Source of the DNA: Xestospongia muta
Taxonomy: Eukaryota; Porifera; Demospongiae; Haplosclerida; Petrosiidae
Length of the DNA: 64,000 nt
Assembly (NCBI GenBank): GCA_963693285.1
Contig: OY848920.1
Span: forward strand, 3,857,135-3,921,134
Direction: 5' to 3'
The position numbers and the translations under genes were made by a program. Below the pieces are notes generated by a model. The model had not been told where the DNA came from. It saw only the letters and a program-made list of their open reading frames with translations, and did not search any database. Positions 7,306 to 63,720 of this stretch are shown one piece after another (position 1 is the first letter of the stretch; each line of letters starts with the position of its first letter).

Positions 7306-7349
7306 TTAAGCACTTTAGTGCCTTTTTTATTGTTACAGTATTTGTTTAA

Positions 7350-12899: not shown

Positions 12900-12930
<31 letters not shown>

Positions 12931-19300: not shown

Positions 19301-22300
19301 TTAATACGATATCATAATGTCACATACCAGACAGAAGAAAGTAACAAAGTTCCTAAACTTAAGTTATACTTCTTTGACAAATCTGACAAGTTAGAATATT
19401 TCTTTGTCTGTTACTCTTCTTCTTACACTCCCTAACATTTTTTATACATCTATTAATGCATTCCTGAATATTGATGATTGTATTACTGAGTGCAGGCATA
19501 ATAAATTGGAACAAAATTCATTTCTAAAACTTAGATGAGCTCTTTTTGTGGTTTGTGAATATTATAAGTCATATAATGAACTAAAAAACTTATATAACAC
19601 AAACATTACTGGATTTACAGAAGGTATATGTACATAATATATGTATTCTGGTTTAGATTGAGAGTCTTAACAATCACAATAAATTAGTTTATGGTTTGGT
19701 ACTTGGTAATCATTAGTTAAAAATAATAATTATTAACGAAATTATTAGAAATCCTCATAGTATGGTTATAATTAGGATATTATAATGACAGGTGTATTAG
19801 ACTAACACTCACTACTCACTTTGTGAATTACTGGTCAGTGATCTAGTAATAACAAATTTAGGTCTATCGATGACTGATGTTTGACTATCACTAACTTCAA
19901 TACCTTCAATTGTTATAGGGTATTCAAGATTATTACTGAAGTCACTCATTGTAGGATTAGCAGATATTTGTACAGGAATGTTAGGAGGATCAAAAAACAA
20001 TGATTGAATGAACTTATCAGCATCTTTCCTGTTAATCTATATCAGAGTAAGTAAAGTACAAAAACGATAACATATATGTAGTTTATTTTTATTTTTTTCA
20101 TCTACATGTCACACCAGCACGCACACATACAAACACAGACACACACATATACACACTCACAGATAACTATTGCTGTGTATGTAGTAAGTATGAACACACA
20201 TATCACTTACTACTGGTGGTGTACGTAGCGGCGTTATTTTCCATCCATTAACTGGATTATCAGGAAATCCTAATAACTGCAATGTATTTTCTGTATCAAT
20301 TTCTCTAGTGGTTGCTCTATCTTGTTTGGTTGATGAAGGTCCATCAATAACAAAATGAAATGGAAAATTTAATTCTTCACTACCAAACTCAGACTTCCAT
20401 TTTCGAATTACCTATATAAGAAATATTGATAATTACTTAAAAACTTAGTGATAAACATTTACTGCATAAGAATATATGGTATCTTGAACAACTGTGAATC
20501 GCATCTTCCATGTTTCCAAATTTGTTACTTTGTAGAATAAATAAGCTCGATAGTTGCAGTTAGGAAGATCAGTATCTGTATAAATTATATTGTGGATTTT
20601 AATTCAAAATTATTATGCCTTACAACACAAAGCATACAACTGCTGACTTAGCATCCTTGTTCTAAACATTTTATTCCATACATGTATAACTGATCAGTAT
20701 ATACTTACTATTTCCATAATAATATTCAATGGCACTACCAACTGCACCTCCTAGAACTACTCCTCCTACACCAAACATGGCACCACCAATTGCAGCACAA
20801 AGTACTATAGCTAGTTTTGAAAATTCTTTGAGATGTATAGTGCCATATTGTGAACCAGGACAAATGATCCTCCTGGTAGGTATTCAAACTTGAAGGGTGG
20901 ACCAGATTTAGCAAGAACAAAACAGAGATATTTTGCCTGTTTCTCATCATTAATATTAACACAATGGTCTAGTTGAACTGTAATTGGTTTATTGAGTTGA
21001 GATGAAGAAGATATTGATATGTAACACACCCCACTAACAAGTAGACTATTTTCAGGAAATTCAAATTTGCCACCAAACAATCCATTAGCAATAATTTCGT
21101 ATGAAGTATCTACTGGTGTGATAACTTGCGCAGGTATGAAAATGTTTAGCCCACATTCTTCAACTGATAACTGTTTATCTTTAGCAGCACTATATTTGGA
21201 ATAGCTCTCTCCCACTATCATCATTCCTTTAAATAAATCTGTGAAAAGTAATTATACAATATATGACAGTGACATTTTAATGACAACAACATATATTACG
21301 TAAGATCACTCAAAATACCTTGAGTTGGTTGTTCCGCTAGTTGGAACTTTTCTAAATCAAGATCTTCAGTTTCACTGTGGTGCGTCATGCCTCCTGTTCC
21401 TAATAGTATATCAAATTAAAAGAACAAAGGATAACATATACGTGTACACAAGGTTAGTGACATGATTAGCCTCACCTACTTATATAGCTCATGCAATGTA
21501 CAATATCAATTAAACATCGGTCAGAGTCTAAGACTTGAGAAACTATAAAAAATTATAGCTTCAAGAATAGTCACTATGATGGATTAGACAAGGACTTATT
21601 ATAGGCTAACAGACTTTAAATCTTTAAATCTTTATACATTGTCAGTAGTTCCCAATTGCTTAGGAACTACAGTCAACTTAGCAACAAAATTATACAGCAA
21701 GCTTTATTGGAGCTAACCAAGTCAGTGTGGAACTTTCAAAGAAAAGGGACAACTAAAATAAAAGATGAGTTACATGTATCTGACTAAGATATTGCTATAA
21801 GTCCAAATATATACTCTGAAGTGTAAAGTGCAAAGTCCATGATTTATTTTATTGATTGTTCTATTAGATACCAGGTATCACCTTTAAAATGTAAAGGAGT
21901 GTCAACCATGTAAAAACAAAGTGTATAAATGTATTTACTATGAAAAATAATTCAGACAAAAAAAATATCAAAATTAAACTTATCTATCACCACTTTTATT
22001 AGAAAGTCCTACATCTGTAAGCCTCATCTTAAAGTTAAAACTGTTATTAAATTTTTGACATTAAGGCTGTCTACAGTGACTGTTGCTTGTTGTTGGAATG
22101 TGCTTATTAGTTATGACAGTTATATACTCAGGCTAAACAAGAACAATCAGGGACACTTGACATGTTACACATGTAAGACTGCTACTACTACCACCTCACA
22201 TATGTTATTATGGTTTGTGATTGCTTACATCGCAATTATTAAAAACTTCCATAATGTGTGAGACAGATACTTACTGAAAAGAGAACATGGGATTTAATTT

Positions 22301-25515: not shown

Positions 25516-25527
25516 GTCATTTATGAC
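25516..25527 (-). CDS. Gene B terminal exon, unit 1 A-type, shortened by a stop
   Basis: After TATAG the exon reads GHK and then TGA. The unit 2 copy has CGA at this position and continues for 28 more residues. The downstream sequence is still similar to the intact tail, so this is a recent nonsense change or an allele with a 3-residue ending. Confidence 0.5.
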
Positions 25528-25815
25528 CTATATGAAAAGAACAACATCGTAAACTAAATTCCTGATAGATAAAATTACACTAGTTAATAAAAATTATCAA
25601 TATTATGATTTGCGTTAGAAGTTAAAAGAAACCTGTACTTGTAATAACAGAGTTATACACATTGTTAACATGTTATACAACAAGAGAGTTATTCAATACA
25701 GTGTACATAGTAATTGATTATAACTTTTGTCTACCAATGTCTCTCTTTTGCCTACCTAACATGACAATTAAATTAGTAAAGTATCTTTATTACATGTCAC
25801 TAAATCAGACTATAC

Positions 25816-26040
25816 CTTTTTGTTTATGTGGTATTCTTTTAGGTAATGAAGGTATCTTTTTGTGAGGCATTCCTTTTTTCTTAAAAGGTCTCCCACTAGA
25901 TGGTTCTTTACCACATCTACTTGAAGTGTCATATGACTCTACATCACTGTCAGATGATAAGGTATGAGATTTTTGCTTCCTGTGAGGTATATCTTCATCA
26001 GACTCTGATAAATTTAATCTCAGCTTCTTTTTTTTCTCTC
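25816..26040 (-). CDS. Gene B tail exon A (unit 1)
   Basis: A 225-nt phase 1-1 exon: GEKKKKLRLNLSESDEDIPH, then HTLSSDSDVESYDTSSRCGK and KKKGMPHKKIPSLPKRI. It is highly charged, with Ser/Asp-rich clusters that resemble casein-kinase-2 sites and Lys-rich patches like nuclear localisation signals. No folded domain is recognised. It is almost the same as exon A of unit 2. Confidence 0.65.
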
Positions 26041-26565
26041 CTATAATCAATTGAAGAAACCTTACTGTTACAGTAGTTAGAAGTCAACATAACATCAGTA
26101 TTTTTTTCTTCTTAGTTGTACAATGTACATTAGCTTGTATACCTGACAATCTTTGTAAAGCTTATATTAGGAAGTACATTCTCAGTCACTGTTTAGGATA
26201 CTTTAATGCAGGCATGTATAAATTAATTGTCTACTTCATCATAATAATAATGGTTAAGATTTCAAAATATGATCACAAGCTATTTTTAATGCTGTACCAG
26301 TGTAAGAATGGAATTTGCAAACTCTTCCTCTTTAGTGAGGCTAAGGGCTCCCTGCTGTTAGTTATTTCTGAGTTGACATGTGCTATGTAGTCCAAACATT
26401 ATGTTATAAGCCTTGACAATACTTAGATGTAGTGTTTAAAAATCCTGTATCATTGTTATAACTGAGATTGAAAGCAATATATTAAGTCACATGTACTACC
26501 ATCTAAGATTGGCTTTGATATGAAATACATCTGGTTCAAATCATGTCTAATATTATTAAATTCAA

Positions 26566-26639
26566 TTACTGACTTGAAGAAGCAGTATATTCCCTTTTTG
26601 ATGGTGGCAGTTCCTTTGTTTGGTTTGTTTGTTTATAAT
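26566..26639 (-). CDS. Gene B terminal exon, unit 1 B-type
   Basis: After TATATAG the exon reads DYKQTNQTKELPPSKREYTA and then SSSQ and TAA. It follows exon B with matching phase 1, so exon B spliced to this exon gives a complete C terminus. Confidence 0.55.
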
Positions 26640-26907
26640 CTATATAAAACAAACAATGTGAGAAACTAATGTATCACAGTAAACTAGTTAATATAAATTA
26701 TCAATACTATAATTTGTTTTAAAAGATAAATATTATAGATTTAACAGAGATAAAAATATCATTAACATGTTATACAATGATCAAGTTAATACAGTATACA
26801 CAGAAATTGATTATAACTATTGTCTACCACTATTTCTCTCTTCCCTGTCTAACATGACAATGAATCAGTAAAGTATCTTCATTACATGTCAGTAAAACAA
26901 ACTATAC

Positions 26908-27144
26908 CTTTATATTCCTGTGGTATTCTTTTAGGTAATGAATGAGTAATTTTGTGAGATATTCCTTTCTTTTTGTAAAGTTTTCCACTAGCTGGTTCCT
27001 TACCACGTCCTTTTGAAACATCATATGATTCTAAATCACTATCAGATGATACATAATGAGATCTTCGTTTACTAAGAGGTATGTCTTCAGACTCTGATTG
27101 AACAGGATGCAGGTCTTCTGATCTCAGTCCCTTCTGTTTCTTTC
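26908..27144 (-). CDS. Gene B tail exon B (unit 1)
   Basis: A 237-nt phase 1-1 exon: GKKQKGLRSEDLHPVQSESE, HYVSSDSDLESYDVSKGRGK and ISHKITHSLPKRIPQEYK. Acceptor TTTCAG, donor GTATAG. It parallels exon A (SSDSDxESYD, KKKGxxHK, SLPKRIP). Function unknown; probably a disordered, phosphorylatable tail. Confidence 0.65.
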
Positions 27145-27504
27145 CTGAAATAATGTATATAAATAATATTGTTTGTAAGTGCCAACTGGTCCTATATTGA
27201 TCCAATTCACATAGCTATTTCTTTTAGGACATTTTTTTGTAAATGACTACATAAAAGAAATATTTAACTATATTCATAGCATTGTTATCCACATTCATAA
27301 TTGGTAAGCTTCCAAATATGATCATAAACAGGATTATCTAATGCTTTAGAATTAGTTTTATACACTCTTTCTCCTTAGTCAGGTTAAGGGCTCTTGCTAT
27401 TATTGTGACTATGAGTTAAAACATGTTATAATGTGTTAGACAGTCTTAAAGTTATGTTATTGGCTATGATAATACTTGTTTAAAGCAATATATGAAATGA
27501 CACA

Positions 27505-27510
27505 TTTATT
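27505..27510 (-). terminator. Poly(A) signal of gene B (unit 2 A-type ending)
   Basis: AATAAA on the minus strand, 7 bases after the TAA stop at 27517-27519. Confidence 0.35.
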
Positions 27511-27516
27511 AGTATC

Positions 27517-27611
27517 TTAAGTTGGCTTTATTAATTGCTGACTTAAAGTAGTAGTAGTAGATTTCGTTTTTGATGATGGCATTTCGTCCATCTGGGTGGA
27601 TCGTTTATGAC
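27517..27611 (-). CDS. Gene B terminal exon, unit 2 A-type (intact)
   Basis: After TATAG the exon reads GHKRSTQMDEMPSSKTKSTT and then TTLSQQLIKPT and TAA. AATAAA follows at 27505-27510. This is the intact version of the tail that is cut to GHK in unit 1. Confidence 0.55.
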
Positions 27612-27890
27612 CTATATAAAAAGAACAACAATGTAAACTAAATTCCTGCTAGATAACATTAAACTAATTAATAAAAATTATTAATACTATGATTTGCATT
27701 AAAAGTTAAAAGTAAGTTGTACTTCTAACAGTGTTATACACATTGTTAACATGTTATACAACAATCAAGTTAATACAATGCACATAGAAATTTATTATAA
27801 CTATTGTCTACCACTATTTCTCTCTTCCTTGTCTAACATGACAATAAATCAGTGAATATCTTTATTACATGTCACTAAATCAGACTATAC

Positions 27891-28115
27891 CTTTTTGTTT
27901 ATGTGGTATTCTTTTAGATAATGAAAATATCTTTTCGTGAGGCATTCCTTTTTTCTTAAAAGGTCTCCCACTAGATGGTTCTTTACCACATCTACTTGAA
28001 GTGTCATATGACTCTACATCACTGTCAGATGATAAGGTATGAGACTTTTGCTTCCTAGGAGGTATATCTTCATCAGACTCTGATAAATTTAATCTCAGCC
28101 TCTTTTTTTTCTCTC
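27891..28115 (-). CDS. Gene B tail exon A (unit 2)
   Basis: A 225-nt phase 1-1 exon nearly identical to 25816-26040 (for example HTLSSDSDVESYDTSSRCGK). It has a few substitutions such as KIFSLSKRI for KIPSLPKRI. Borders TTACAG and GTATAG. Confidence 0.65.
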
Positions 28116-28658
28116 CTGTAATCAATTGAAGAAACCTTACTGTTACAGTAGTTAGAAGTCAACATAACATCAGTATTTTTTTCTTCTTAGTTGTACAATG
28201 TACATTAGCTTGTATACCTAACAATCTTTGTAAAACTTATATTAGAAAGTACATTCTCAGTCACTGTTTAGGATACTTTAATGCAGGAATGTATAAATTA
28301 ACTGTCTACTTCATCATATTAATAATAATGGTTAAGATTTCAAAATATGATCACAAAATATTTTTAACGCTGTACCAGTGTTAGAATGGAATTTGCAAAC
28401 TCTTCCTCCTTAGTAAGGAAGAGCTCCTGCTGTTAGTTATTTGTGTGTTGACACATGCTATTATGTGCTATATGCTAAGTAGTTCAAATATTATGTTATA
28501 GGCCTTGACAATACTTAAATCTAGTGTTTAAAAATCCTGTATCATTGTTATAACTAAGATTGAAAGCAATATATTATATGTCAAATGTACTACCATCTAA
28601 GATTGCTTTGATATGAAATACATCTAGTTCAAATCATGTCTAATATAAGTAAATTCAA

Positions 28659-28732
28659 TTACTGACTTGAAGAAGCAGTATATTCCCTTTTTGATGGTGG
28701 CAGTTCCTCCATTTGTTTGGTTTGTTTATAAT
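28659..28732 (-). CDS. Gene B terminal exon, unit 2 B-type
   Basis: A 74-nt exon reading DYKQTKQMEELPPSKREYTA and then SSSQ and TAA. Joining all exons of gene B up to this stop gives 4008 nt, an exact multiple of three. Confidence 0.55.
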
Positions 28733-31700
28733 CTATATAAAACAAACAACATGTGAAACTAAATTCCTAATTTATCACAGTAAACTAGTTAATATAAATT
28801 ATCAATACTATGAATTTGTTTTAAAAGTTAAATATTATAGTTTTAACAGAGATAAAAATATCATTAACATGTTATACAATGATCAAGTTAATACAGTATA
28901 CACAGAAATTGATTATAACTATTGTCTACCACTATTTCTCTCTTCCCTGTCTAACATGACAATGAATCAGTAAAGTATCTTCATTACATGTCAGTAAAAC
29001 AAACTATACCTTTATATTCCTGTGGTATTCTTTTAGGTAATGAATGAGTAATTTTGTGAGATATTCCTTTCTTTTTGTAAAGTTTTCCACTAGCTGGTTC
29101 CTTACCACGTCCTTTTGAAACATCATATGATTCTAAATCACTATCAGATGATACATAATGAGATCTTCGTTTACTAAGAGGTATGTCTTCAGACTCTGAT
29201 TGAACAGGATGCAGGTCTTCTGATCTCAGTCCCTTCTGTTTCTTTCCTGAAATAATGTATATAAATAATATTGTTTGTAAGTGCCAACTGGTCCTATATT
29301 GATCCAATTCACATAGCTATTTCTTTTAGGACATTTTTTTGTAAATGACTACATAAAAGAAATATTTAACTATATTCATAGCATTGTTATCCACATTCAT
29401 AATTGGTAAGCTTCCAAATATGATCATAAACAGGATTATCTAATGCTTTAGAATTAGTTTTACACACTCTTTCTCCTTAGTCAGGTTAAGGGCTCTTGCT
29501 ATTATTGTGACTATGAGTTAAAACATGCTATAATGTGTTAGACACTCTTGGTGGCCATAAATTATAAATATTTTAAATTTCAAATTCAGTCCTTTAGTAG
29601 TAGCCTGAATATAGTCAGTTCCTATTGTCCAGTTTAACAAGTACAAGTACATAACTCTGTGTACATGTACAATAGATAATAGAGTAAAGGAAAGGGATAC
29701 GATCTGTGGGTGTGGTTATAATAGGACATAAATTTATATGGCTGCCATAAAAATGGACACATGTACAGTTGAGTGGAATCATAATTTCAATAACAATTAC
29801 AAACAACATGTTTCCAGTAGTAAGGTATGTAATGTTTGAACTTTTATTATTATATATAAAGTTCACAAAAATTTATACAATAGTGTTCATATTAAGGTGA
29901 CAAGTGTATTTGCATGGTTCATATTAATCACTTTTTATTAAATCAGTGGGTGTAATGTTGTGATCATTGTTGTGATAATAAGCCACTAGTATATTGATTA
30001 ATAATTTATATTAACATAGTAAAGTTACAATGTTTTGTGGTTAGGTAGAAAAATCACTAAAACAACTTGAAAACCTTCACATGCTGTCCTAGAATTATTA
30101 ACAAGGAAGTATGATAAACAAAAAGAAGTATTTGTCGTGGAATTATCAGTAATGGTCCTGGTAGAGTTACTCATATACTAAACATTTCTCTATTGACAAT
30201 GGTGAGAATTCATGCATATTCTTGAATACTTAATATTAAGGGATATATATATATGACATGATGGACTCCAAAATATATTCTTCAGTGAACATAGGTATAT
30301 ACTGGACTACTGAATCTCACCATCTTGGGATATACTAAGTATCCAGTGACACAGGTACACTGGGTTCATTTATTAACAATTCCAGGATGTATTACAGTTA
30401 GTGAGAATACTTAGCACTGTATATCTCATAATAGAATAAGATAAAAATTGACTTTAAACTCATTCTTACAGGTAACATACCTGAAATGAGGTAGTCATCT
30501 CCACAATTTATTAATTGAAAAGGGGCTTGGACTTTGTATGGTGTCATATCTATGACATCTTGTCTTGTCTTGTTAAGTATTTCATTGACTGTCATAGTTT
30601 TAGCGTATTCCTTTATATTATCACACAATTTAATTGTCCAAGCACCTCCCTTTGAAAAATCACCCTGAGCAACTCCTCTGTAATATGTAGCATGTGCAAC
30701 TATAGTGTAATCATTAGGTGGTTGGTAACAAGGTAGATATGGATTTAAGGGAGGTGGAGCTGTTGTAGGTAATGTTTCAGTTGTATCTTTCTTTAAACAA
30801 CAGTCGAAGAGAAACAAACGTTTACGATCTTCAAGATGACAATTTGGATTGATAGGTTGAAATTGATTAATGATTTCTTCATCAATAGAAAATTTCTCAT
30901 GTTTGTCATTGTCACATGGTAAAACAAAGTATCCCTTCTTGTCTATACTTCCACCATGACCTGCATAATAAAACACCAACCACTTCAATTTAATTGAGAA
31001 ATAAAGATATTCTGATACAATCTTCACTGCTTTCTTCATTATTGTAGGTGTCGGATTTTTAATTACCCAAGTGGCAAAGTTGAGACCATCGAAAGTTGTT
31101 TTGATGTTTTTAATATCTAAATCAGTTCCCTGTGGTCCCATCTTATTCACCACACCAAATATGATGGCAAGACCACTTTTAGGATTAGGACCATTCTGTG
31201 CATTTGCCATTATCTCTACAGTAAACTCTTTGTACATTTTATCTGAAAGGAGTAAAAAATAGATAATCATACTTCAGAGTCAGTAATATTATGAGTTACT
31301 CAAGTCACTGTCTTCAACCCAAAAACCATACAGCAATATAATGAAACATTTACCAAAACTTTTATTGTTCAGTGTTATACATGCATTACATTTGTATTGC
31401 AATATTTGGTAGGTATAACAAAAGCTTATAGAATGTTATATTGTATGCAGTTAGTATATGAACCAAAACAATTTAGGACTAGTTGCCACACACATGTGGT
31501 AGGCAGTTGAAACTAGCAGTTGTCACTATAATATTTATTAACTTACCATCATGTGGAATAGCCTGGTTTGATGAATCTGAACAAAACAAAAATATGAATT
31601 TGAAATATATCATTGTGGCCAATGTATTAAGAAGAAACTTATATAATATTTTACTTTTGATGCAGGAGGTAATTCAAATCTATTTACTTTACACTAAATA

Positions 31701-34700
31701 AAGTCTATTCACATTTACCTCAAGCTTGTAAATATCTTTACTGCTTAATTATATTTTAATGTTCTATTGACCATACTTTACTTGTAAATTTAAAAAAAAA
31801 CAGTCACACATCTTGACTGTAGACTTGTACTACATTAACTGCAAGTAGTATTGGAATAATTATAACACCTTATTGAGCAAAAAAGTCGACGTTATGGTAA
31901 GTCAAATCAATATAATGCGAGCAGTCTCTAGTACTTATCTTCCTAACAAAACCTTACCTCCAAACCAAGGTAGCTGACATGACTTATCAGTGTCAGTTGT
32001 TTCAGAGCTATCTTGACAGGTGAGTGTTAATTTATCATCATTTAAACGACAAAAATGTTCTGATGATTTATTGGGGCAATCTGGTATTGTACAATAAAAG
32101 TAATCTTCAAGACTGTATACAGTAACTGTATATTGGAAATTGCCAATGACCTCAATAATTGCTGCACGGACAGTATTACGTAAAGAATAACATCTTTTTC
32201 TAGAGTCAGTATAGTAGATTGCCAACCATGATTTTCCATCAATTAAAAGAACATCACCATGATTAGCTTCTAAAGTAATGATATTACGATAACGAGGTGT
32301 GGTAGGGGTAGGATGTTTAAGTTTAAAGGTCATCTGATCTTTACAATTTAGAAGGTTGGTAACTAATGCAGGAAAAATTCCGCGAGGAAAAGGCTTCATA
32401 CCCCATGACAAAATTAGAGGTTCAGTATGTTTCTTAAAAGAAGATGGTATAGACTTATAGTCAATGGAAGATGTAGTAGGAAGAACAGTTGGTAGAAAGT
32501 ATTTTCCTTTCTCAGGTAAAGGAGCCATAATAAACAACTTTGTCATTAAAATGAGAAAATTGTCTGCTGAAAAGTCAGAAGAAAATTTATCAAATAAACG
32601 TGGAGTTAATAGCTTTTTACTAAAAGATCCTTCTCCTTTGAGCTCTACAAAATGTTCTTCATCGATAAAAATATTATGACCTTTTAAAATATCAAATGTT
32701 TCAGCAAATGAGATACTGATCAAAACAGAGAGAATATCGAATAGTATTTGTGGATGAAGAAACACTACATTAGACAAGATTTTAGGAAAGTACAGGAAGA
32801 TAGTCATATCATGGTAATACATTAATGCTTTTTCAACTTCTTCTGGTTCCATATATAAGGTCTTTCCAATATCCAAGCATTTTAATTTGGATACAACTAA
32901 GACATTAGATTGACAAAACTTCTGGTCTAATTCTAGCTGAAACAAGAACCATCGAATCGGAATTTTAACTTTTAAAGAAAATCTACATATTTGACAACGT
33001 ATCTCATTAGCTAATTTTTTTACTTCTTCATCACTGCTGGCAACAGCATTCACAGGAAAAATAATTTGATTTTCTGCGGCACGATATCGAATTACTTGAA
33101 CATGTAGTTTTAATTGTTCTAGCACTTTCATAAGAATAGAATTTTTGTATACTAGTAACTCACCAGAGAAACCAGGTTCCAGTAGTTTATCATAAAATGT
33201 CCCTAGTACTATGCAATGTGGCTTTTTAACATTCTCTTCATCATTCTCACTTTCATTCTCAATTGAATATTCTAAAACTTGAGTAAATTTAGGACAATTA
33301 TATGATGTTAGTGAGTGAAATGAAGCTTGGAGAAGTTCTAGATTTGTTATCTGCTTATTAGTTGGCTCTGCAAGTTTAACTCCTTTGATAGAAAAGAAGA
33401 ACTTAGCTTTTTCGTAAAGTTGTTCATCTAGCTTATGTGTAAGAATATTAACAGAGTGATATCGTAACAAAATCGGAGCAATATCTAGAAAAGCAGCCTG
33501 ACCTCCAGTATCAACACCATATATCCAATGAGCTTTATAAAGCTCTTTTGAGTTCTGCACATGAGGTAAAAGGTTAATAATTTCTTGAGATACATCAGAC
33601 TTTGTTACATCTTCTGTTGTGGTGGTTTGTTCAGATTTATTTGTGTCTATGTTTTCTACTGCCTGGTGTGACTCAGTTGTTACTGGGTGTTCAATTGATT
33701 GTTGACTTCCTATTTCTAAAGATTGTTGACTTCTTAACTCTGGAGATTGTTGACTTTCTAACTCTGGAGATATTTCCATGTTGTTTTTAATATTTCCAGC
33801 AATTATTTCCTTCACTTTGTCTGGATCCACCTTCATCCATAACAAATTATGATCGTCTCCTGTGATGGCAGTTACAATATGTGCTGGACGTGGGGCAACT
33901 ACATTAGTACTGTTATGTACATTGTCATTATCACATGGTTCATCATTATATAGTAGCTTTAGAAAAGATGATTTACCAGTTCCAGGTGCACCAGATATTA
34001 AAAACTTGGAGAATTCAGCAGTTACAAAACCTTTCTTCATAGCTTTGTCCAGTAACACATCATTGCCATCTAGCAAAGAAAAAGTCAGTTCTTTCCATAC
34101 AATACTAAAACCTAATTAATATTATATATTTTGGACAACATGTATCTATTACACAACTCTAATGTATTAGTAACATAACATGTGGGAGGGATCATTATGT
34201 CCAAGATATTAGTACGACACAAGGTGAAGGGAAGTTTGTATAAACAGATCCCATCCCTTTTTTATTCTACATACATGTATGTGGATTATTACATGGTATA
34301 ATACAGTATAATAAGTATCCTAACAAGTTATCATATTAAAACTAGAGATTTGTCTATGATTATATACCAAGACTTCATGCAATCAATAAATTGTTATGAA
34401 ATAAATATATCTTAGGACTCCTTGGCTTGCTTGTGTACTACACAAAAGCAATATCATGAATACCATGCCACTGCTGAAAGAAGAGCTATAGTAAGCTAAT
34501 AGTCAGTAGTAGAACTTGAGATAGTGATAACTTTACAACCAGCAACTCTCTCATTATTGTTTATTAAATGATTCAAAGTCCACTTTGATTACTATTGAGA
34601 TAAGCAAATTCATAAATTTGCAAAAAAGCTGTTAGAAAAATATTCAAAAAAAGTTGCTATATTATTGCACTATAACAACAAAGAGTGCTGAATTGTTTTA

Positions 34701-37700
34701 TAATTTTATAGTTAATACAAGTACAACATGCACAAGACAACTTGTAGGATTAGTATAATATTGTCTAAAGTCAGTCCACTCTGTAGTCCATATTCAATGA
34801 ACTCCACATAGAATTGGGCTTATATACCATGGTTTATACTATAATACTAAAAATATCATAAGAGTACAACTTAATAATTCATTACAGTAGCACTAACCTA
34901 TTTTGTCTACTACAACTAGATCTTCTGGACTGACTGCAACTGAATATTCTGGATTGTCTAAAAAGAATAGTTAAATTACTACAAAACAAGGTGTAAAAGA
35001 CAGATTTAAAAATTTTATTTCTATATAACTGTGAAACTAACAAAAAAAACAATTATGAGTCAAATCAGTTTCCACAAAGTGGACTGGTAATTAAATAATG
35101 TGGTCAAATAAAAATTGATGCTTAAAGCTTTAACATGGGTATTAAGAGGCATACATGATCATAATATTATCACAATTAGTCATTTAAAGTACACAGCATG
35201 CAAAGCATGATGGTTTGCATAAATGTTAAGCTAATTAATTATGTGAGGGTGTGACAATTGTCAATGCAATTCAATTTGCATACAACATATGTTAAACAGA
35301 CTCTCCTTCTACAAATGTATCTTGACTATTGAAACCTTGTGAAGGCTGTTTCTAAGGATAAGGATTTGTACAAATGAATTTACAATAGCTTCTGTCAATA
35401 ATATCTTCAATTATGACATTTCAACTGTACCTAAAATTTCTACATTTCATTAGTTGGTGATTAGGGTGTGACAAAATTTACTGACATCACTGACAAAAAT
35501 AACATGAACTACTAACATGTGTCATCTCCAAATTACTAGTTTGACTAATGTTTAGACATATTCTGACAAAGACAATGGTCTGTATAAAACAGATAAAATA
35601 GCTTACCATTCCATAGCCAAGTGGCTTGGTTATATTACAACATTACATCCACTGACTTCATAAACAGTTATGAATATTCATAATTCTTTACAAAGTCTGT
35701 GTGTGTAATATTGTGACAATTAGCCAAAAACATGAAATGTTAGTACAATCAACTAATAATAAACAATCATAACTTTGAGAAACTTAACTTGTTTGTTTGA
35801 AGTAAAAGATCAAAACAAATGAAAGTTGTTTTTTTAATGATAATTATCAGGCATGTGGTAGTAGTGTCTAAGGTGCTTCTTGGTGTAACTTGACTGATGA
35901 TGTACAACATGTCTTATGATGACATCACTATGTGTCATAGAGTAAATAATGTTAGGTTTGGTTTAGCACATTATTGTACTTTTGATAACTTATGACTCTC
36001 ATTAAACATCATACTCAGGTATATAACATTGATATTCTTGAGATTAGAAAATTATCTTTGCCAGTAATTCGATGATATAGTTAAAATCAAGATCCTATAA
36101 CCTCGTGTTAGAAAATTGCTTAAGTGGGTGCGATGTCATGATGATTAGCCACAGCCATTTTGCTAGAAATTTAGATTATAACAAAATTTGTTTTTTTGAG
36201 AAAACTTAAATAGTCCATTTGGAGCTAAAGAACAGAACAAGTAAAATAAATCTTTTTTCTATTAACACTTATAAGGCTGTCTGATGTGTTACATGTGACA
36301 AATAAATTAAGCAAAATGGATCTAAAAAGTCAACTTTCACGTGAGAACTAGTTTCTAATTCCATTCCTTTACTCTATGACATGTATATATTATTATACTG
36401 AAATTAACTCGCAAATTATACTCTGTCCTAGCTAACTACTGAGTTAGTAATCTATCTCAGGCTAAGAATAAGCTAGAGAGAAATGGTTCGTTCTATTCAG
36501 TAAATCTTGCAAATCCACTTAAAACATGAAAAAATTGGAGTGCTAGATGTTTAGAAAAGAAATCCAATACAATAGGATGACTTTCTATACATACCACCAT
36601 GACACCATGTCAATGATGTCATGCATAATTCCAGATTGTTAACGAATGTACACACAATAATTCACTAATTGGAATAAAATTTTAGACACAGTAGATAATT
36701 TCTTTTATAGGACATAACTCAATGGGTACATGTGCAATAGATAAAAGGATAAAAGGAAAGGGATAAGACTTGTGGGTGTGGTTACAATAGGACAAACTTT
36801 TATAAGACTACTATAAAAATGAATAATATTCAGTTCACTGGAATCACAATTTTAGTAACAATTACAAACAACATGTTTGCAGTAGTAAGGTATGTAATGT
36901 TTGAACTTTCATTGTTATATATAAAGTTCACAAAAGCTTATACAATAGTGTTCATATTAAGGTGACAAGTGTACTTGGTTTATATTAATCACTTTTATTA
37001 AACCAGTGGGTGTAATGTTGTGATAATTGTTATGATAATAAGCCACAAGTATATTGATTAATAACTTATATTAGCACAGTAAAGTTATAAAGTTTTGTGG
37101 TTAGGAAGAGAAAATTATTGAAACAACTTGGAAATATTAATGTGCTGTCCTAGAAATACCAACAAGGGAGTATGAGAAGCAAAAATGAGCATTTGTTGAG
37201 AAAGGTATGAGTACAGGTAGAGTTACTCTATGTTAATTTTTTGTCTAATGACAATAGTATCAAGCTTAAGGATACTTGTTGCTGATGTTGGTCCAGTCTT
37301 AGGGACTACTTAGTATCCTGGAATATATAGGATTGCTAGTTAAGACAAAATAAAATCCAGCCACAAGAGGGAAGAGAGAAGTGTGTAACTAGACCTAAGC
37401 TTCATCTAATATATTCCTAACATACAAGTTGATGCTTGCTGTCTTAGCAAGGAGAGCTAACTCATATTTATGATTGAAATGTTATCTATCATTTCTGAAG
37501 TTAAATGCATGAGAGCTACATATGTTGGTTGTGGATAAAGGGTGAATTACTTAAAGTAAGGAGTCAGTAGCTACACAAGATACTTATAATAGTTACTACT
37601 ATAAGCATGTATATATATACATAGATATTACACACACACACACACATATATATACCTAATATAATACTTACATACTAATAGCACCAATATTGTAAAGACA

Positions 37701-40700
37701 TGTCTACTGCAATAAATCATATTACTTTTTATGGTTTTTTCAATTAAATATAATATAGTATCTCTGTTGTTGTCATCAAGTTGAACTTTGTCTGCCGCTG
37801 TTTCATTATTCTTATTTTTAATAGTAGCATCAGCTCCATTAGTCAGTAGCAATTTGATACATTCCATATTACCCATAGAACATGCATCATGTAATGGTGT
37901 CTCACCATACTATATAATGAAATAATATCATATAATATAAACATTGAAACTTGTTAATTACAGATATATTGGTATATTATAATAAATACAATAATGTTGA
38001 TATTTACTAATAATGTATTACTAACATATACAATAATCCTACACATCCTTCTAGTCATATTATCCCTACAATATGAACAAAAGCAGTAACTGACTATAAT
38101 GTAAATTATAACTTTGTATTATTACTGATAACAAATATTTTTATCTCCTAAAGCATAATGTATTGTTTGTTAACTTATGTTGGATATTTAAACTACATAA
38201 GTCTAACAAGAGCATATTAATATGTCTCAAGTGTATGTTTCACATTATAACATGTAATGTACATTGATTGTAAAAAGTATATAAGCTTGATGTTACATGG
38301 AGTATGGTATAAAAGACAAAGAAGCATACAAGGTCTGTCTGTTGCATTATTGAGTTAACCACTTTGTATGTGGTGTATCATTTGATGTTTTTTATTCTTA
38401 TTAAAATGTAATGATTAATATGAACATTAGTTTGAAAGATTCAATTCATATATATGTTACTTTATAAGCTTATTAAAGATCCTAATAATCAGAGAATATA
38501 TTATACAAATTTCTCTCAATAAAATATATCAGAGCATATATCACTAGGTAATAAACAGCATCCTGGTGTATTTACTTTGTTGCTACAAATTCCATCAAGT
38601 CATTAAAATTTGTACAATAATAATAAACATAGCAAAAAGCCAAATAGGTAGTTACAGAATCATAATAAATGTAGCATTACTGTTTAAATTGTACTGATAT
38701 GTTGCATCTTATAATCTCTGAAATTAGCCAACTGATGTAAATTATGCTAATTAGCACTGATATTACAAACATTTGTCTCTTTGTAGCTGCTACTCTAATC
38801 ACTTTTGTTATTACAAATATTATAGAAGTGCCTATATATAAACTTACAGGAAGTGACTAAAAGACAATTAAGTACATGTATCAACAACAACATTATATAC
38901 AAAATACAATTGTGTATAGTAATGACTACAGTTGTAAATACTCAGTAATGGAGATACTTACTTTGTTAATGGGATCCAGTCCTGCTCCAGCTTTGATGAG
39001 TAAGCCTGCGATTTCAGTGTGGCCATTATAAGCAGCCCAGTGAAGTGGAGTCTCTTCGTGCTACATAAAGGTATTATAATCAATAAGCTCCATAGTTCTT
39101 TCAATATTGACAGAGTTACAGCTATATATAGTAATTAGAGTGTAAACTGTGCAGATTTTTTAACAGTTATAACTAGTGTACATCAACATTATACAACAGT
39201 TGTAGTCTCATGTTAATAGCCAAAGATGACATTAAAATAATGCATTAGTAATTAAGTGTACATAATATCACCTATTAAATGGAAAATTAAGGCTATTTGT
39301 GATTATCTATATAACCTACACTATCCAATAATGTGAACATTGACATAATTTTGTTACATTCATTCAATCATGAGCGAGTTTATTGTACAAAAAAACGTTA
39401 TGTAAGCCATATTAAAACAATCAACTGCAATATTTAAAATTGATGCAACAACACTAACAAATAAAATAGAGTGCCTAATACTATGAAATGTTGAGATATC
39501 AGCAATAGCATAAACTATATGTTGACCCAATAACACCTGTAACATCATTGGTACGAGACTCCTTAAGTGACAATTATAAGTACTGTATTGACAATGTATT
39601 AATATACAATATATGTTATTTGTACATTACAATAGCAGTACTTTATTAACTGAGTTTGGATTTGACTGTCTTTCTAAGAGCCATGATACCACTTCAGTAT
39701 GTCCATGGTATGATGCTTCATGCAATGGTGTGTACTCATCCTAAATAAGAGTAAATTATGATGCTTATTGATAATGATTAGTAATGTGATGAGAAACAAA
39801 TATTTCTCACAACTTCTATCTACAAGTTATTAAATAATGACTATGACTTTTTCAGGAGAGGGATCATGACAGTGTAAGGATGTGCTTAATCACAAATTCT
39901 ACTAAAAGTATATCCAGAGAAATCAAATCATTTACACAGGTGGAAACTTAATGACAACTAATTTTTGATGGGGAGTAAATATGAACGTAGAATATGATGG
40001 CTAATGTTTTGAGACTAATATGATATTAAAGTGTTGATCATTTTAAATGTTGTTTCTTTTAATGTGTAGTTGTTACATACAATGACAAGTATGGTCTGTA
40101 GATGATAGGAACCTTAAGTGTAATGAAAAAGATTATATGTACATGTGTACATACACGGGAGTAAGGCTGATCTTATTCTTTGAGTTGAATCATTTTTAGA
40201 AGCAGATCAATATGCAAGGTTTTCTTCAATAGTTACAGCTATTGTGTTTTCCAATTAGTTAATTTCCTAGAATAATTCTGAAGTCCCTAAAAATGTCATT
40301 TTCTCTTCCAATGTGAAAGGATGTAGCAGTTATAATAACAAAAACAAATATGAGCCAGAAAAGGAACTAGAATTTCTGGTGTTTGAGCTTTGTGTGATGG
40401 TATTGTCAGACCCGATCATTGCATTTTCTATAATATATTGTATGACACCATGGAGGTTTATTGTATTGATTAAGCACAATAAATCATATCACAGGTATAT
40501 AATTAAAACAACATGATTCTACAATGGAGATGCAGTGATTTGTGAGGTAACAACTCTTGAGTATGAAGCATTATATGTACATGTCACGGAACACATTGAG
40601 TCTAAATATAGCATTCACAGTTAAAATATAACCTATACTTACATAAAAGGAATTGGTAACTTACTCCTTTTCCATGATGATTTACATCTGCACCTTGTTC

Positions 40701-43416
40701 AATAGCAAATTTGACTTGTTCAATGTTTCCATCATAAGCTGCCCAGTATAACTGTCTATTCAATGATATAAGCCTTCCATTCTTTAATAAAGGGTCTTCT
40801 ACAATAAAATACATGTACATATAACTAAGTATACAATGTGCATCTACATGACTTTCTAACACTATATATTTCTATCATTATTATGAACTAGGTATATATG
40901 TGCATATACAGTTAAGTCTTGTGCCACATGATGCTAGTGGCATACTAGGTAGTTATGGCTTAAACAGAAGTCTCCTGTTGAGCAATATAAGGGAGTCTTA
41001 GTTAAATGCTTAGATAAAAGATGTAATTAAGGAATTCTCTCCCATCAAAAAAGTTGAACTTGTCTTTATTTAGTCTCGTCCCCAGACCTACTCGCAAGCT
41101 AAAGTAGGTCTGGTCACACGGCTTGACTTTTGTGTCCCCAGTAAGGAATGTGGCGTGGGTGTTGATATGCAATTAGAGGTAGTGTGAAATATGAATATCA
41201 TCAAATTGAAGTGTTAAAGCAGATTTCATGTAGAGTAGCTATGTATTCACTTTCACACATACTTCAATTTGATAATATTCATATTTCACATTACCTCTAA
41301 TTGCATACCAACACCCGCGCCACATCCCTTACTGGGGACACAAAACTCAAGCCGTGTGACCAGACCTACTTTAGCTTGCAAGTAGGTCTGGGGATGAGAC
41401 TAGTCTTTATTTTGAGGGGCAAATCTACTTTGCTGAATAAAACTATATTTGTATTTGAATTTCCTTGCCCAATGTCTCATTGTGGATGGACACTTGAAGC
41501 ATCTCACATCTAATAGGCTAGAACATTACTCTGTCTATCACCCTTCTTCCTATTCTCTCTGTCATTTTTCATTATACATCTATAATTGCATTCCTGAATA
41601 GTGATAATTGTATTACTGAAGCTTTGAAAAGTTCTTTCTATATACACGTAGTTGTTTGTGTATTTTGTAAGTGTGGTCTTTTAGACATGTTTTAGTTATT
41701 ACAATGAACAACAAAACTTGCATAACACAAATGTTACTGGATTTACAGAAGGTACATGTACATAATATATATATATATATTCTGACTAAGTTACAAGTTC
41801 AAATCTAAATTGCAACAATTAATTACCTTATGCTTTGGTGCTTGGTAATCATGGGTTTAAAATAATAATTATTATTAATGATATTATTAGAAATGCTCAG
41901 GGCGAGGTTATAATTATGATCTTACAAATACAAGTATTAAACAAACACTCATTTTTGAATTACTAGAGAAATCACAAAAGGCAGTTAGTTACAGAATATT
42001 CAGGTATGTAAATTGAACTAGTTATATTACTGTTTTAGACACATGCACAGTTAGCTTCAATTTGCTTACTGTAATTACAAAAATTATATGGAAATAAACC
42101 AAAAATTGGCAACAATTATACAATATCAGTGGAATACATAAACTAAGACTAAACTAGCTATTTTATAGATATTATAGCAAACAAAAACAATATTCATAGC
42201 ATGACTATGCAAAATAGCAATAACAAGTATGATGAAATAAGGGTATACATGAATATGATTAGTTCAAGTTAGAGTAAACAAGACTGTGAATCTTGGTAAG
42301 GAAGTTCGATGTTTTTTAGGTAGGCTTACAGATACTGATATACCAGTCATACAATAATGATTCTGGACCTTCTTTAAGTTGAACATCAAAGCAAGAAATA
42401 GTTTATACTTACTGCAAAAAGTAGGAGACTATGCTTCAATTTAGCTACATTGAAATAGCATTCTTTGTTCATATTCGTTTCTTTGCATTTATAATAATTA
42501 TTCATAAAAATGGCTGCCCAAAAGTAGCTCTTCATAATACACTACTGAAATCATTAGTCTTATTTCTAATGCGCTTAAATGTGACCTACAAAAGACCATC
42601 TATCATATTTTAGCATGTTACTTCTGTGACTTTAGTGTCTATACTGTTTATGTTTATGGAGTTATTATTATCTATAAAGCAGAGGAAGAGGCAGAGAGAA
42701 AAAATTAGCCTTTTTCCAATTGTGTCTATGATGCTTAGTACCTAGTCTTAACCTATAACTAAGTTAAAATTAAGGAATTATCAATACTTTAAAGAATTGA
42801 AAGATATTGATCAATTTTTAGTGAGATGTTCTTTTTTTCTGACAATACATTTCAATGAATAATCAGGGCTATATCTACATAGGCACTGCTACCACATGCC
42901 TGATAAACCACCATCTAATAGAATAATAAGACATGAGTGTTTTACCATCTATACTCTGTTCACATTGAGAAAGACTGAAGTTTAGTAGTTTAACATAGTT
43001 TGGTGAGCAATTATTGTTTGTATAATTGTCAACTATTATTGACTAGAGTAGTGTTAGATTATTGTTTTGTAAAATTCTAATTTTGAAATAAATATTTGAT
43101 CTGTAATAAGGACCATTAATCTAACTCCATCTAAGTGGCTAATAGGTATGTAAAAAGGACACAGGCTATTTATTTTAATATTAGAGTCACCTGTTTTAGG
43201 TCCAGGATTAAGTTCAACATCTCCTGATAAAATAAGGAGAAGAGAGAGAAAAACTCCTAAAGAGAAAGTAAGATCTTTAATCTTCCTGATAATAGTCACT
43301 CCATCTATCCTACTACTGCTCTCAGTGTTTGGAGTCTCTTTAGAATGAGTACTGTATGATATCTGATGACATGCCCACAATCCAATACACACTCTCCATT
43401 GATTGACATCAATCAT
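28659..43416 (-). CDS. Gene B: 2A-ankyrin-Roc-COR-caspase-like protein
   Basis: Exon chain, 5' to 3': 43416-43191, 40798-40665, 39740-39642, 39060-38962, 37910-37736, 34957-34898, 34069-31958, 31576-31547, 31242-30481, 29246-29010, 28732-28659, with further alternative tail exons to 25516. Every junction has GT-AG borders and matching phase, giving about 1335 residues. In order: hydrophobic segment and 2A motif (to residue 73), ankyrin repeats (about 80-260), Roc GTPase (P-loop about 291-298, DTGGQ about 451-455), COR, Cys/His module, caspase-like domain (His about 1074, Cys about 1126-1127), charged tail. Known families: Roc-COR are GTP-driven switches; caspase-fold C14 peptidases cut proteins; ankyrin repeats bind partners. 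Inferred: a single-chain sensor-switch-protease. The join across the 2.8-kb intron between the ankyrin and Roc-COR parts rests on phase agreement alone. Confidence 0.65.
29010..29246 (-). CDS. Gene B tail exon B (unit 2)
   Basis: A 237-nt phase 1-1 exon with the same encoded residues as 26908-27144. It is the first tail exon after the caspase-like exon (30481-31242), whose donor is also phase 1. Confidence 0.65.
29646..30205. repeat. Dispersed repeat, copy 1 (also at 36711-37252)
   Basis: About 550 bp of close similarity in the same orientation: GGAAAGGGATA.GA.CTGTGGGTGTGGTTA, then ACAATTACAAACAACATGTT and AAGTTCACAAAA. No coding capacity. It lies in an intron of gene B between caspase and tail exons. 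Confidence 0.75.
30481..31242 (-). CDS. Gene B exon: caspase-like (peptidase C14) domain
   Basis: A 762-nt phase 1-1 exon of 254 codons. GLAIIFGVVNKMGPQGTDLD starts the fold. WLVFYYAGHGG holds the catalytic His (exon residue about 96) and RLFLFDCCLKK holds the catalytic Cys (about 148-149). A p10-like part follows (GGAWTIKLCDNIKEYAKTM ... PFQLINCGDDYL). The DCC context resembles metacaspases and paracaspases rather than the QACRG of animal executioner caspases, so substrate preference may differ. Both catalytic residues are present, so activity is plausible. It directly follows the Roc-COR exon and microexon. Confidence 0.85.
31547..31576 (-). CDS. Gene B 10-codon microexon
   Basis: A 30-nt phase 1-1 exon reading DSSNQAIPHD, with acceptor TTGTTCAG and donor GTAAGT. 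The counterpart in gene A is DINQAISYHE (23638-23667), equal in length and phase. Confidence 0.6.
31958..34069 (-). CDS. Gene B exon: Roc-COR GTPase
   Basis: One long exon of 2112 nt (704 codons, phase 1-1). It carries a P-loop (FLISGAPGTGKSSFLKLL), a switch-II element (YGVDTGGQAAFLDIAP) and a G4-like motif (HCIVLGTFYDKL), the order of a Ras-like Roc domain. An insert between P-loop and switch II has a threefold short repeat ending SQQS. The COR region follows (IRWFLFQLELDQKF ... EKALMYYHDMTIFLYF ... VVFLHPQILFDILSVLI). The last 200 residues form a separate module (YKSIPSSFKKHTEPLILSWG ... YFYCTIPDCPNKSSEHFCRL) that recurs in gene A and in the 63-kb pseudogene. LRRK2 and MFHAS1 belong to the same broad family. 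No kinase domain is present; a caspase-like exon follows instead. Confidence 0.85.
34898..34957 (-). CDS. Gene B linker exon before Roc
   Basis: A 60-nt phase 1-1 exon reading DNPEYSVAVSPEDLVVVDKI, with borders TTTTTAG and GTTAGT. No domain. Confidence 0.55.
36711..37252. repeat. Dispersed repeat, copy 2
   Basis: Second copy of the repeat at 29646-30205, lying in the intron between ankyrin repeat 4 and the linker exon of gene B. Both copies are followed by a unit of the 24.2-kb tandem repeat family, so the two repeats travelled together. Confidence 0.75.
37630..37646. repeat. (CA)n microsatellite
   Basis: Short CA dinucleotide run followed by TA repeats, in an intron of gene B. Confidence 0.8.
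37736..37910 (-). CDS. Gene B exon: ankyrin repeat 4 and linker
   Basis: A 175-nt exon, phase 0 to 1: YGETPLHDACSMGNMECIKL, LLTNGADATIKNKNNETAAD, then a linker to the donor GTAATA. It returns the frame to phase 1, which all later exons use. Confidence 0.8.
38962..39060 (-). CDS. Gene B exon: ankyrin repeat 3
   Basis: 99 nt (33 codons), phase 0-0: HEETPLHWAAYNGHTEIAGL, then LIKAGAGLDPINK. Donor GTAAGT. One exon per repeat, as in exon 39642-39740. Confidence 0.85.
39642..39740 (-). CDS. Gene B exon: ankyrin repeat 2
   Basis: Exactly 99 nt (33 codons, one repeat), phase 0-0: DEYTPLHEASYHGHTEVVSW, then LLERQSNPNSVNK. TPLHEA and GHTEVVSWLL are typical ankyrin elements. Donor GTACTG. Confidence 0.8.
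40665..40798 (-). CDS. Gene B exon: first ankyrin repeat
   Basis: A 134-nt exon, phase 1 to 0: DPLLKNGRLISLNRQLYWAA, then YDGNIEQVKFAIEQGADVNH. The LYWAAYDGN and GADVNHHGK elements are ankyrin-repeat hallmarks. Donor GTAAGT. Confidence 0.75.
41071..41402. mobile_element. Foldback MITE with 9-bp target duplication
   Basis: Arms of about 145 bp face each other as near-perfect inverted repeats, starting TAGTCTCGTCCCCAGACCTA and ending in the reverse complement with one or two changes. Flanks are identical 9-mers, GTCTTTATT at 41062-41070 and 41403-41411. Each arm also carries a nested palindrome of AGACCTACT and AGTAGGTCT. Long terminal inverted repeats plus a 9-bp duplication are the pattern of Mutator-like (MULE) elements. 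It encodes nothing. Confidence 0.85.
41530..41965. repeat. Duplicated intron segment, copy 2
   Basis: Copy of 19408-19840, same orientation, starting next to the foldback MITE. It ends in TTTTTGAATTACTAG, matching the start of the gene A UPA-end exon region. Confidence 0.65.
43191..43416 (-). CDS. Gene B first exon: signal-like segment and 2A recoding motif
   Basis: Starts at the ATG 43416-43414 (MIDVNQWRVCIGLWACHQ). Residues about 49-63 are hydrophobic (LTFSLGVFLSLLLIL), followed at once by SGDVELNPGP (DVELNPGP at 43198-43221). D-V/I-E-x-N-P-G-P is the canonical 2A motif, at which the ribosome skips the Gly-Pro bond and makes two proteins from one reading frame. 2A motifs joined to N-terminal signal sequences have been described in invertebrate NLR-type immune genes. 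The donor is GTGACT in phase 1, matching the ankyrin exon at 40798. When skipping fails, the hydrophobic part stays attached and could change the protein's destination. Confidence 0.8.
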
Positions 43417-49132: not shown

Positions 49133-49320
49133 TAACTGCAGGTATTGAAATGTTATCTGTTTATTTTCAGTTTCAATATCAGTTCAAACTTCTGTTAATT
49201 AAGTACTGAGTTAATTAAGTACTTAGTTGTCATTTTTTACTAAAAATGTCTTTGACATAATAATCAATATAAACAAAGTAGCTTGCTAACAACTTTGTTC
49301 TTTTCACTGAGCTTTAACTG

Positions 49321-49326
49321 AATAAA
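49321..49326 (+). terminator. Poly(A) signal after gene C1
   Basis: AATAAA about 190 bp after the stop codon of the C1 LRR exon. Confidence 0.4.
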
Positions 49327-49817
49327 GACAAATTAAAGAAAAAGAAGTAAAGAAGTATGTATGGGAATTAAAACCTGAAGAGTATGTCCTGAAAGTACTT
49401 TAATAATTATGTCTGGACAATTTGAACTATTTGTATAGAATGTTAATCATCTTCTCTCTTTAAATAATTCTATAACTACAAAGAAGCTAATTGGTACATG
49501 TTCTGACAAGAAGTCCACTATACTTTGCTATATATCTGAGTGTCATACTGAATACACTACTAAAGTATTGTCACATCTCTAACATTATCACTATATTAAC
49601 TAATACAGCTTGTCCTCAATATACCATCTAAGGAAGTATGCTATTTATAGTACTACTTCCAATGCTATTTACAGTTCAGACTGGTATGTAGCCACACCCT
49701 TCTTTGACCTCCCTAGAAGTGGATATTGTTTTGACCATGGCAACCATTCTCAGTGAGTTAAAAATTTAGATCCTTTTCTCATTTATAAATGTAAATCATT
49801 TTTATTTTTTGATATAG

Positions 49818-50426
49818 CTAGTTTGAAAGATATCATTGAAGCTTTGAAGCAAAGTCACTTCCCAAATCATCGCTGGTCTCCTCTTGGTCTACAACTGGGT
49901 CTATTACAACCTACTCTGTCAGACATTAGAGCCAAGTATAGAGATGCTCCAGAGAGTTGTCTTCAGGAGTGTTTAACTCTGTGGTTGTGTAAAGCTGACA
50001 AGGTGACTGAGAGTGGAGGTCCTACATGGGACTCATTAGCTAGTGCTCTTAACAAGTTAGGAGAAAATGCTACTGCTTACAAAATAAAGGAATTTAGTAA
50101 GGAATTCATTATTGGTTTACATAATTTACTTCTTACAACAGAAGAGTCATTTACTCCTGCATGTCAAATGCTATAACAACACACTGACAGACTCTTACCT
50201 CTCATTCTTCCTGTGGAGATTGTTCAGATGTTATATGAAGAGAGAGTGATCTCTAAGGAAACATTAGATGAAGTGAATAGATTGGGAAGTGTACTAGGAG
50301 AAGGTCCATTGAGAGCACTGCATACTACAGTGTCTAAAGACCCAAATATTTTAAAAGTGTTCGCAAGTGTCTTGTTGAAATCTGAAGGAACAGTACAGAT
50401 TGCTAAAGATATACTCAAGGAATATG
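49818..50426 (+). CDS. Gene C2 exon: Death and CARD-like domains
   Basis: A 609-nt exon. The first half (LKDIIEALKQSHFPNHRWSP, then LGLQLGLLQPTLSDIRAKYR and CLTLWLCKADKV ... TWDSLASAL) is a Death domain. The second half (LLPLILPVEIVQMLYEERVI, then SKETLDEVNRLGSVLGEGPL and FASVLLKSEGTVQIAKDILK) has the spacing of a CARD-type Death fold. TAA at 50174-50176 divides them in the same frame. Confidence 0.75.
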
Positions 50427-63713: not shown

Positions 63714-63720
63714 TAGTCCA

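Follow-up and report, generated by a model that had tools for sequence, protein, structure and literature searches.

A sponge gene predicted to join a signal-2A leader, ankyrin repeats, a divergent Roc-COR domain and a caspase-like domain: candidate modular receptor in a family built around a recurring leader exon

According to passages of PMC8195603, bacterial conflict proteins with an AP-GTPase (Roc)-COR module carry C-terminal effectors, a caspase among them, and DAP kinase is named there as the metazoan counterpart. A different theme is found in sea urchins, where passages of PMC4981915 report that the recoding and dual targeting brought about by a signal-2A leader have been measured for the leader of an NLR protein. 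Here we describe a gene of the sponge Xestospongia muta, termed gene B, in which elements of both themes are combined. It lies on the minus strand of a window of 64,000 nucleotides (nt) of assembly GCA_963693285.1 (158.0 Mb, 28 contigs), namely positions 3857135-3921134 of contig OY848920.1 (hereafter C4). Its modules are, in order, a hydrophobic leader ending in DVELNPGP (exon E1), four ankyrin repeats (E2-E5), a linker (E6), a Roc-COR exon (E7), a short exon (E8) and a Peptidase_C14 exon (E9), followed by tail exons. Since both the bacterial Roc-COR-caspase proteins and the sea-urchin signal-2A NLRs are already published, gene B represents a new combination of known parts, and the more far-reaching result is the recurrence of the signal-2A leader exon, together with the modular gene family around it.

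Like the predicted product of gene B, the bacterial proteins have an N-terminal repeat sensor, a Roc-COR switch and a C-terminal effector; however, their repeats are LRRs rather than ankyrins, a 2A leader goes unmentioned in the passages concerned, and in bacteria it is the effector that varies, whereas in the gene B family the N-terminal part varies as well (PMC8195603). With the sea-urchin NLRs gene B shares an N-terminal hydrophobic leader directly before a 2A core and the standing of a putative immune receptor, but those are NACHT-LRR proteins with a 26-amino-acid (aa) N-terminal 2A sequence (PMC4981915), whereas the gene B leader has 72 aa and belongs to an exon of its own, copies of which precede ankyrin, Death-like, Roc-COR and Kelch exons. 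An assignment to the NLRs was rejected because no NACHT domain was matched in gene B by Pfam at an E-value (E) of 1. Ankyrin or other repeats are combined with Roc-COR in DAPK1 and LRRK2, and gene B is predicted to share this combination with DAPK1 and LRRK1/2; in gene B, however, no kinase domain, LRR or Death domain was found, and a C14 domain is present instead. Neither a kinase nor a Death domain was matched in it by Pfam at E 1, which excludes the DAPK family, and membership of the LRRK family was likewise ruled out on missing domains.

The exons, splice borders and phases of gene B were recomputed from the letters of the window, confirming its exons, their order and its motifs. E1 to E9 (43416-30481, minus strand) all have GT donors and AG acceptors and form a single open frame of 3748 nt free of stops, frameshifts and lost splice sites. 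Exons end in phase 1 after E1, in phase 0 after E2, E3 and E4, and again in phase 1 after E5, E6, E7, E8, E9 and each tail exon. All module borders are thus in phase 1, so that each module is a 1-1 unit that could be exchanged without a change of frame, and this uniformity suggests exon shuffling. The four tail exons form two pairs that arose through a 2.1-kb tandem duplication (90% DNA identity), and because of this duplication the C terminus of gene B is uncertain; with all four, the gene has 14 exons, 4683 nt and 1560 aa. An earlier note on this DNA, drawn from its letters, had joined eleven exons with GT-AG borders and agreeing phases into one frame, which stands, except that its 4008 nt become 3996 or 3984 nt when a single tail exon is joined to the terminal one. 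The motifs it had listed, DVELNPGP, GAPGTGKS, DTGGQ, a Cys/His set and the His and Cys of the C14 domain, were all located, and its four ankyrin repeats are borne out by one repeat each in E2-E5 by eye and by a Pfam Ank_2 match (E 2.7e-41, over cut-off; joined protein with one tail exon).

Three other loci carry E7, E8 and E9 with 86-91%, 80-100% and 90-94% identity to gene B, respectively, and with splice sites identical to those of gene B where located; L061, L062 and L063 all share the E7 acceptor of gene B. At C4:5.15 Mb (L061) an E1 copy, a Death-like exon, E7 (89%) and E8 are followed by E9 in L033, while at C4:3.46 Mb (L062) the series comprises E1 in L014, two Death-like exons, E6 (75%), E7 (91%) and E8, then E9 in L034. 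At both loci the modules follow one another in this order on a single strand, and E1 is separated from the C14 exon by 8.9 and 10.7 kb, compared with 11.9 kb in gene B. The third locus, at C4:3.82 Mb (L063), has a Death-like exon, E7 (86%) and E8, with E9 and a tail exon following in L032. The 5' part of gene B recurs at C4:4.79-4.80 Mb (relatives of E2 and E5 being taken from the best 150 of 3609 candidates scored, a lower bound), where E1 (97%), E2 (86%) and E5 (98%) are followed in L079 by E6 (95%), another Roc-COR exon and a tail exon (56%). That Roc-COR exon resembles E7 by only 28%, over the COR part, and C14 was not matched in L079, nor do any of the listed C14 matches lie near it. Tail-exon pairs also occur elsewhere on C4 with no listed C14 relative close by.

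Paralogues thus exist with E1, Death-like exons and E7-E8-E9, and with E1, ankyrin, linker and a different Roc-COR exon, and this supports the reading of gene B as one gene, which we regard as well supported by such comparisons, though not proved. The single-chain order given in the earlier note gains from the same paralogues, since some of them share its 5' block of leader, ankyrin and linker exons and others its 3' block of Roc-COR, E8 and C14. Its self-contained sensor, on the other hand, turns out to be less unique, as its leader, linker, Roc-COR and tail also occur in other genes and two sister genes carry Death-like exons in the place of the ankyrin repeats.

The leader exon recurs at no fewer than 150 places in the genome (the best 150 of 175 candidates scored, hence a lower bound). 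A search with the 2A coding pattern D(V/I)ExNPGP, also allowing Met at the V/I position (which no listed match has), gave at least 150 genome matches (54 + 96) as against none for the reversed pattern. The overlap of the two sets was typed on contigs C1-C11, with 81 leader hits and 87 listed pattern matches: the exact core is kept in 71 of the 81 leader hits, the other ten including the L012 copy and copies with stops, and 71 of the 87 pattern matches fall inside leader hits. The remaining 16 lie outside such hits, and the leader exon could conceivably be of retrotransposon origin. The best 20 leader copies all fit the core (D/G/C/N)(V/I)ExNPGP, one of them (L012) having N for D, a listed variant under the definition of the 2A core in passages of PMC12846837. 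In these 20 copies pN/pS is 0.12 for the core, 0.25 over the 15 codons ending the hydrophobic segment and 0.42 upstream; the 2A core is therefore the most constrained part of the exon.

Within 1.5 kb downstream of the same 20 copies, Death-like exons were found in seven (L013, L014, L016, L018, L022, L026, L028) and Roc-COR in two (L027 and, in part, L029), and in the other ten, including that of gene B itself, the queries matched nothing over this distance. Downstream of one copy (L030) lies a Kelch-repeat exon detected by Pfam, which extends the reach of the leader beyond death and ROCO genes. Two of five Death-like exons tested in Pfam match at E 0.05 or better, one of them over cut-off; the remaining ones are so called because they share 42-46% identity (89% in L016) with the first. 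A genome with about 150 pattern matches or more, most of the placed ones in a single recurring exon, would be highly exceptional and would allow the idea of dual targeting to be tested on natural genes.

Because Pfam alone was too insensitive for E7, homologue profiles were used for this exon. At least 250 proteins among 7997 candidates scored match it at E 0.001 or better, and the 120 listed homologues mostly span 95% or more of it. Alignment A1, comprising E7 and 39 of these 120 (40 sequences), shows the G1, G3 and G4 residues and the C-terminal Cys/His set to be invariant or nearly so. At E 0.01, COR-A is matched in 17 of the 40 members and Pfam Roc in none, while COR-B is matched by no member and E7 on its own has no COR-A match. 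A profile of A1 aligned over 625 columns (E 6.6e-32) with A3, a set of four proteins encoded in this genome (719-784 aa), all of which exceed the Pfam cut-offs for Roc and COR-A, and from DTGGQ onwards over 310 columns (E 6.4e-6, probability 85) with A4, LRRK-like LRR-Roc-COR proteins of the same genome. Membership of E7 in the Roc-COR family is thus transitive, as the exon is Pfam-negative yet its profile matches Pfam-positive Roc-COR proteins, and the most likely reading of E7 is a diverged Roc-COR in which some 150 additional residues separate G1 from G3. Open frames of LRRK-like LRR-Roc-COR-kinase type were also seen at L064:463-3456 and L065:463-3456 (Pfam on L064 in this pair). Fragments resembling the Roc-COR exon (42-75% identity) lie in the window at 11867-13135 and 63075-63963 on the minus strand, the former frame also having a long glutamine-rich tract.

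The C14 domain is recovered directly by Pfam in the joined protein (E 2.9e-18, 66.9 bits versus a cut-off of 21.4). Against PDB, E9 alone gives a weak match to caspase-3 (E 0.0074), and a profile of alignment A2 (E9 with all 30 listed homologues, 31 sequences) recovers caspase-7 and caspase-3 structures with a best E of 5.1e-10. The His and Cys of E9 align to the SHG and QAC motifs of caspase-7, and His95, Cys147 and Cys148 are conserved at 90% or more in A2, in agreement with the statement of the earlier note that His and Cys are in place. The Gln of QAC, which in classical caspases belongs to the S1 pocket for a P1 Asp, is replaced in the alignment by Asp (FDCC), so the domain was filed as C14/caspase-like rather than as a classical caspase. 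In metacaspases and paracaspases Asp at this site goes with a basic P1. In gene B the Asp lies two positions ahead of the predicted catalytic Cys, which likewise suggests a preference for a basic rather than an acidic P1.

The same two families also stand in the opposite order in arrays at C6 0.80-0.91 Mb and at C10 1.72-1.89 Mb, where the spacing of C14 and COR-A was examined. Here 28 of 28 listed COR-A hits (one underlying list being the best 150 of 261 candidates) are preceded on their own strand by a C14 hit at a distance of 1.1-1.8 kb. In L080 (L080:3-2918) one uninterrupted frame of 972 aa or more contains both, each over its Pfam cut-off, so that a C14/Roc-COR fusion exists independently of the splice model of gene B.

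Taken together, these observations somewhat favour gene B being one exon-shuffled, modular ROCO-caspase receptor, mainly cytosolic through 2A skipping and with GTP-gated proteolysis. In such a receptor the 2A core would skip the G72-P73 bond in most translations, giving a 72-residue leader and a cytosolic protein that starts with Pro, while unskipped chains would retain the hydrophobic segment and go to secretory membranes. The cytosolic ankyrin block might bind a ligand or partner, a place taken by Death-like domains in the sister genes, and the Roc-COR module would dimerise and switch with GTP, bringing the C14 domains together for cleavage. A role in immune or cell-death signalling would fit this composition. 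If correct, this would show that the linkage of a Roc-COR switch with a caspase-like effector in a single polypeptide, known from bacteria, occurs in an animal as well.

Several observations weigh against this reading, and some of them favour a split of the locus into two or more genes, in which case a leader-ankyrin gene would end ahead of 34.9 kb and Roc-COR and C14 would belong to another. E5 and E6 are separated by an intron of about 2.8 kb, and at L063/L032, which bears the nearest C14 copy (94%), the Roc-COR-C14 block has no leader in 10 kb; the L063 Roc-COR match starts at residue 7, and the stretch after its acceptor differs by one base in length. Furthermore, just 3 of 17 C14 copies (the first 17 of 35, gene B's included) have a leader within 12 kb upstream, and the leader at the C4:4.79-4.80 Mb locus (L012) reads NVELNPGP instead of the exact core. 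A split nevertheless appears quite unlikely, given that the linker E6 stands between the 5' part and the Roc-COR exon in L062 and L079 and that phases agree across the module borders. It is also conceivable, but more improbable still, that gene B arose by recent recombination or is a copy in decay and that no product of it is expressed: the tail exons are duplicated, a C14 copy on C9 (L042) has decayed with three stops, and dN/dS is high, at 0.47-0.81 between gene B and the other three loci (E7, E9) and 0.55-1.32 among those three. Paralogue pairs have dS of 0.05-0.10 and dN/dS of 0.47-0.81 in all but one case, the E9 pair of 5.15 and 3.46 Mb, where few changes give dS 0.006 and dN/dS 1.32. 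These figures fit young, fast-changing genes and lend only moderate support to constraint on E7 and E9, but the intact reading frame and splice sites of E1-E9 argue against decay.

The domain assignments have their own weak points. A domain search of the joined protein (one tail exon), proposed in the earlier note, found Ank_2 and Peptidase_C14 over cut-off but no Roc or COR at E 1; E7 alone has no Pfam match, and a PDB search with profile A1 gave no good match, with LRRK1 as the sole ROCO protein among the chains listed, aligned over the P-loop at an E no better than 0.79. The reading of the S1 pocket of E9 is based solely on alignment. The regulator cFLIP is non-catalytic, and were the C14 domain of gene B of this kind, the chain would be an adaptor. 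By eye L080 has CISSDG at the caspase SHG site and FININ at QAC, with loss of the catalytic His and Cys, so at least this fused form is probably inactive; both residues are, however, conserved at 90% or more across A2 (31 sequences, with gene B among them), which makes an adaptor role unlikely for gene B itself. Similarly, the leader could be a plain signal anchor or signal peptide, its 2A core kept by recent duplication and gene conversion with no recoding. Many leader copies on C4 are young and similar, and 2A efficiency varies with the upstream residues (passages of PMC4981915), but the low pN/pS of the core relative to the other two parts of the exon and the intact core in most copies on C1-C11 leave this explanation a low probability.

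Beyond gene B as a GTP-gated receptor, a wider and more speculative picture, which we hold tentatively and with some doubt, is that of a genome-wide combinatorial system in which one mobile signal-StopGo exon placed before dozens of shuffled immune and death genes would give two addresses per mRNA. In gene B it would share one chain with a sensor of ankyrin repeats, a GTP-dependent switch and a catalytically active protease of basic preference, so that translation and nucleotide state might together gate proteolysis.

The brown-algal ROCO genes are likewise candidate immune receptors with exon shuffling and a uniform intron phase, but passages of PMC11378527 describe the shuffling of single LRR exons in phase 2, whereas here whole domains seem to be exchanged in phase 1. 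In the sponge Amphimedon, an expansion of TRADD-N/Death genes also shows many architectures around death-fold domains, including ankyrin and caspase parts, yet it is built on TRADD-N, and for the sponge the passages concerned make no mention of a 2A leader or of a Roc-COR-caspase order (PMC8195603). A figure legend in the Dysidea NLR paper names COR and CASc among its domains (PMC12909245), and passages of PMC5009743 tie sponges only to mitochondrial frameshifting. Searches of the open-access literature, which leaves most subscription papers outside, yielded among the papers listed no description of the exact gene B order or of a sponge 2A leader family. The remark in the earlier note that no described protein has this exact order holds to that extent, but the joining of Roc-COR and a caspase effector on one chain is published for bacteria (passages of PMC8195603). 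The features of gene B are collected in Table 1.

Table 1. Predicted features of gene B, in window coordinates
Feature	Coordinates	Strand	Basis
E1 leader exon, hydrophobic segment and 2A core, 75 codons plus one base, phase-1 donor	43191..43416	-	exon model, genome search
Hydrophobic segment LTFSLGVFLSLLLILSG, residues 49-65	43222..43272	-	sequence
2A/StopGo core DVELNPGP, residues 66-73, predicted skip between G72 and P73	43198..43221	-	motif pattern
E2, ankyrin repeat 1	40665..40798	-	Pfam; 86% relative at C4:4800598
E3, ankyrin repeat 2	39642..39740	-	Pfam
E4, ankyrin repeat 3	38962..39060	-	Pfam
E5, ankyrin repeat 4 and cap	37726..37909	-	Pfam; 98% relative at C4:4797679
E6, 20-aa linker exon, phase 1-1	34898..34957	-	75% identity in L062, 95% in L079
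E7, Roc-COR exon, 718 codons, C-terminal Cys/His module	31958..34111	-	homologue profiles
G1/P-loop GAPGTGKSS in E7	33966..33992	-	alignment A1
G3 DTGGQ in E7	33498..33512	-	alignment A1
G4-like LGTFYDK in E7	33186..33206	-	G303, T304, D307 invariant in A1
Cys/His module in E7	32016..32093	-	C673, H685, C687, C698 invariant in A1
E8, 10-aa exon, phase 1-1	31547..31576	-	exon model, sister loci
E9, Peptidase_C14 (caspase-like) exon	30481..31242	-	Pfam, structure-profile matches
Predicted catalytic His (YYAGHGG) in E9	30956..30958	-	alignment
Predicted catalytic Cys (FDCCLK, second Cys) in E9	30797..30799	-	alignment
Tail exon T1, phase 1-1	29010..29246	-	exon model
Tail exon T2, phase 1-1	27891..28115	-	exon model
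Tail exon T3, duplicate of T1	26908..27144	-	exon model
Tail exon T4, duplicate of T2	25816..26040	-	exon model
Possible terminal exon, TGA stop, uncertain	25517..25527	-	exon model

The window also contains other genes. On the minus strand, downstream of gene B, lie two Death-domain exons, of which one passes the Pfam cut-off and the other does not, and a possible ZU5 exon that likewise scores under its cut-off; this region, at 18248-22799, probably belongs to another gene. At 47502-54439 on the plus strand lie SH3 and Death exons over the Pfam cut-off, LRR-like exons recognised by eye, one of which had no Pfam match when tested, and a 241-aa frame; in its SH3, Death and LRR-like exons this region resembles the published Amphimedon Death/TRADD-N/SH3-LRR gene type. 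Further plus-strand features are reverse-transcriptase frames at 7198-8564 (RVT_1 E 1.3e-30 for 7198-8175) and a Class C GPCR (7tm_3) gene at 1516-5300, in which the ligand-binding stretch is seen twice by eye.

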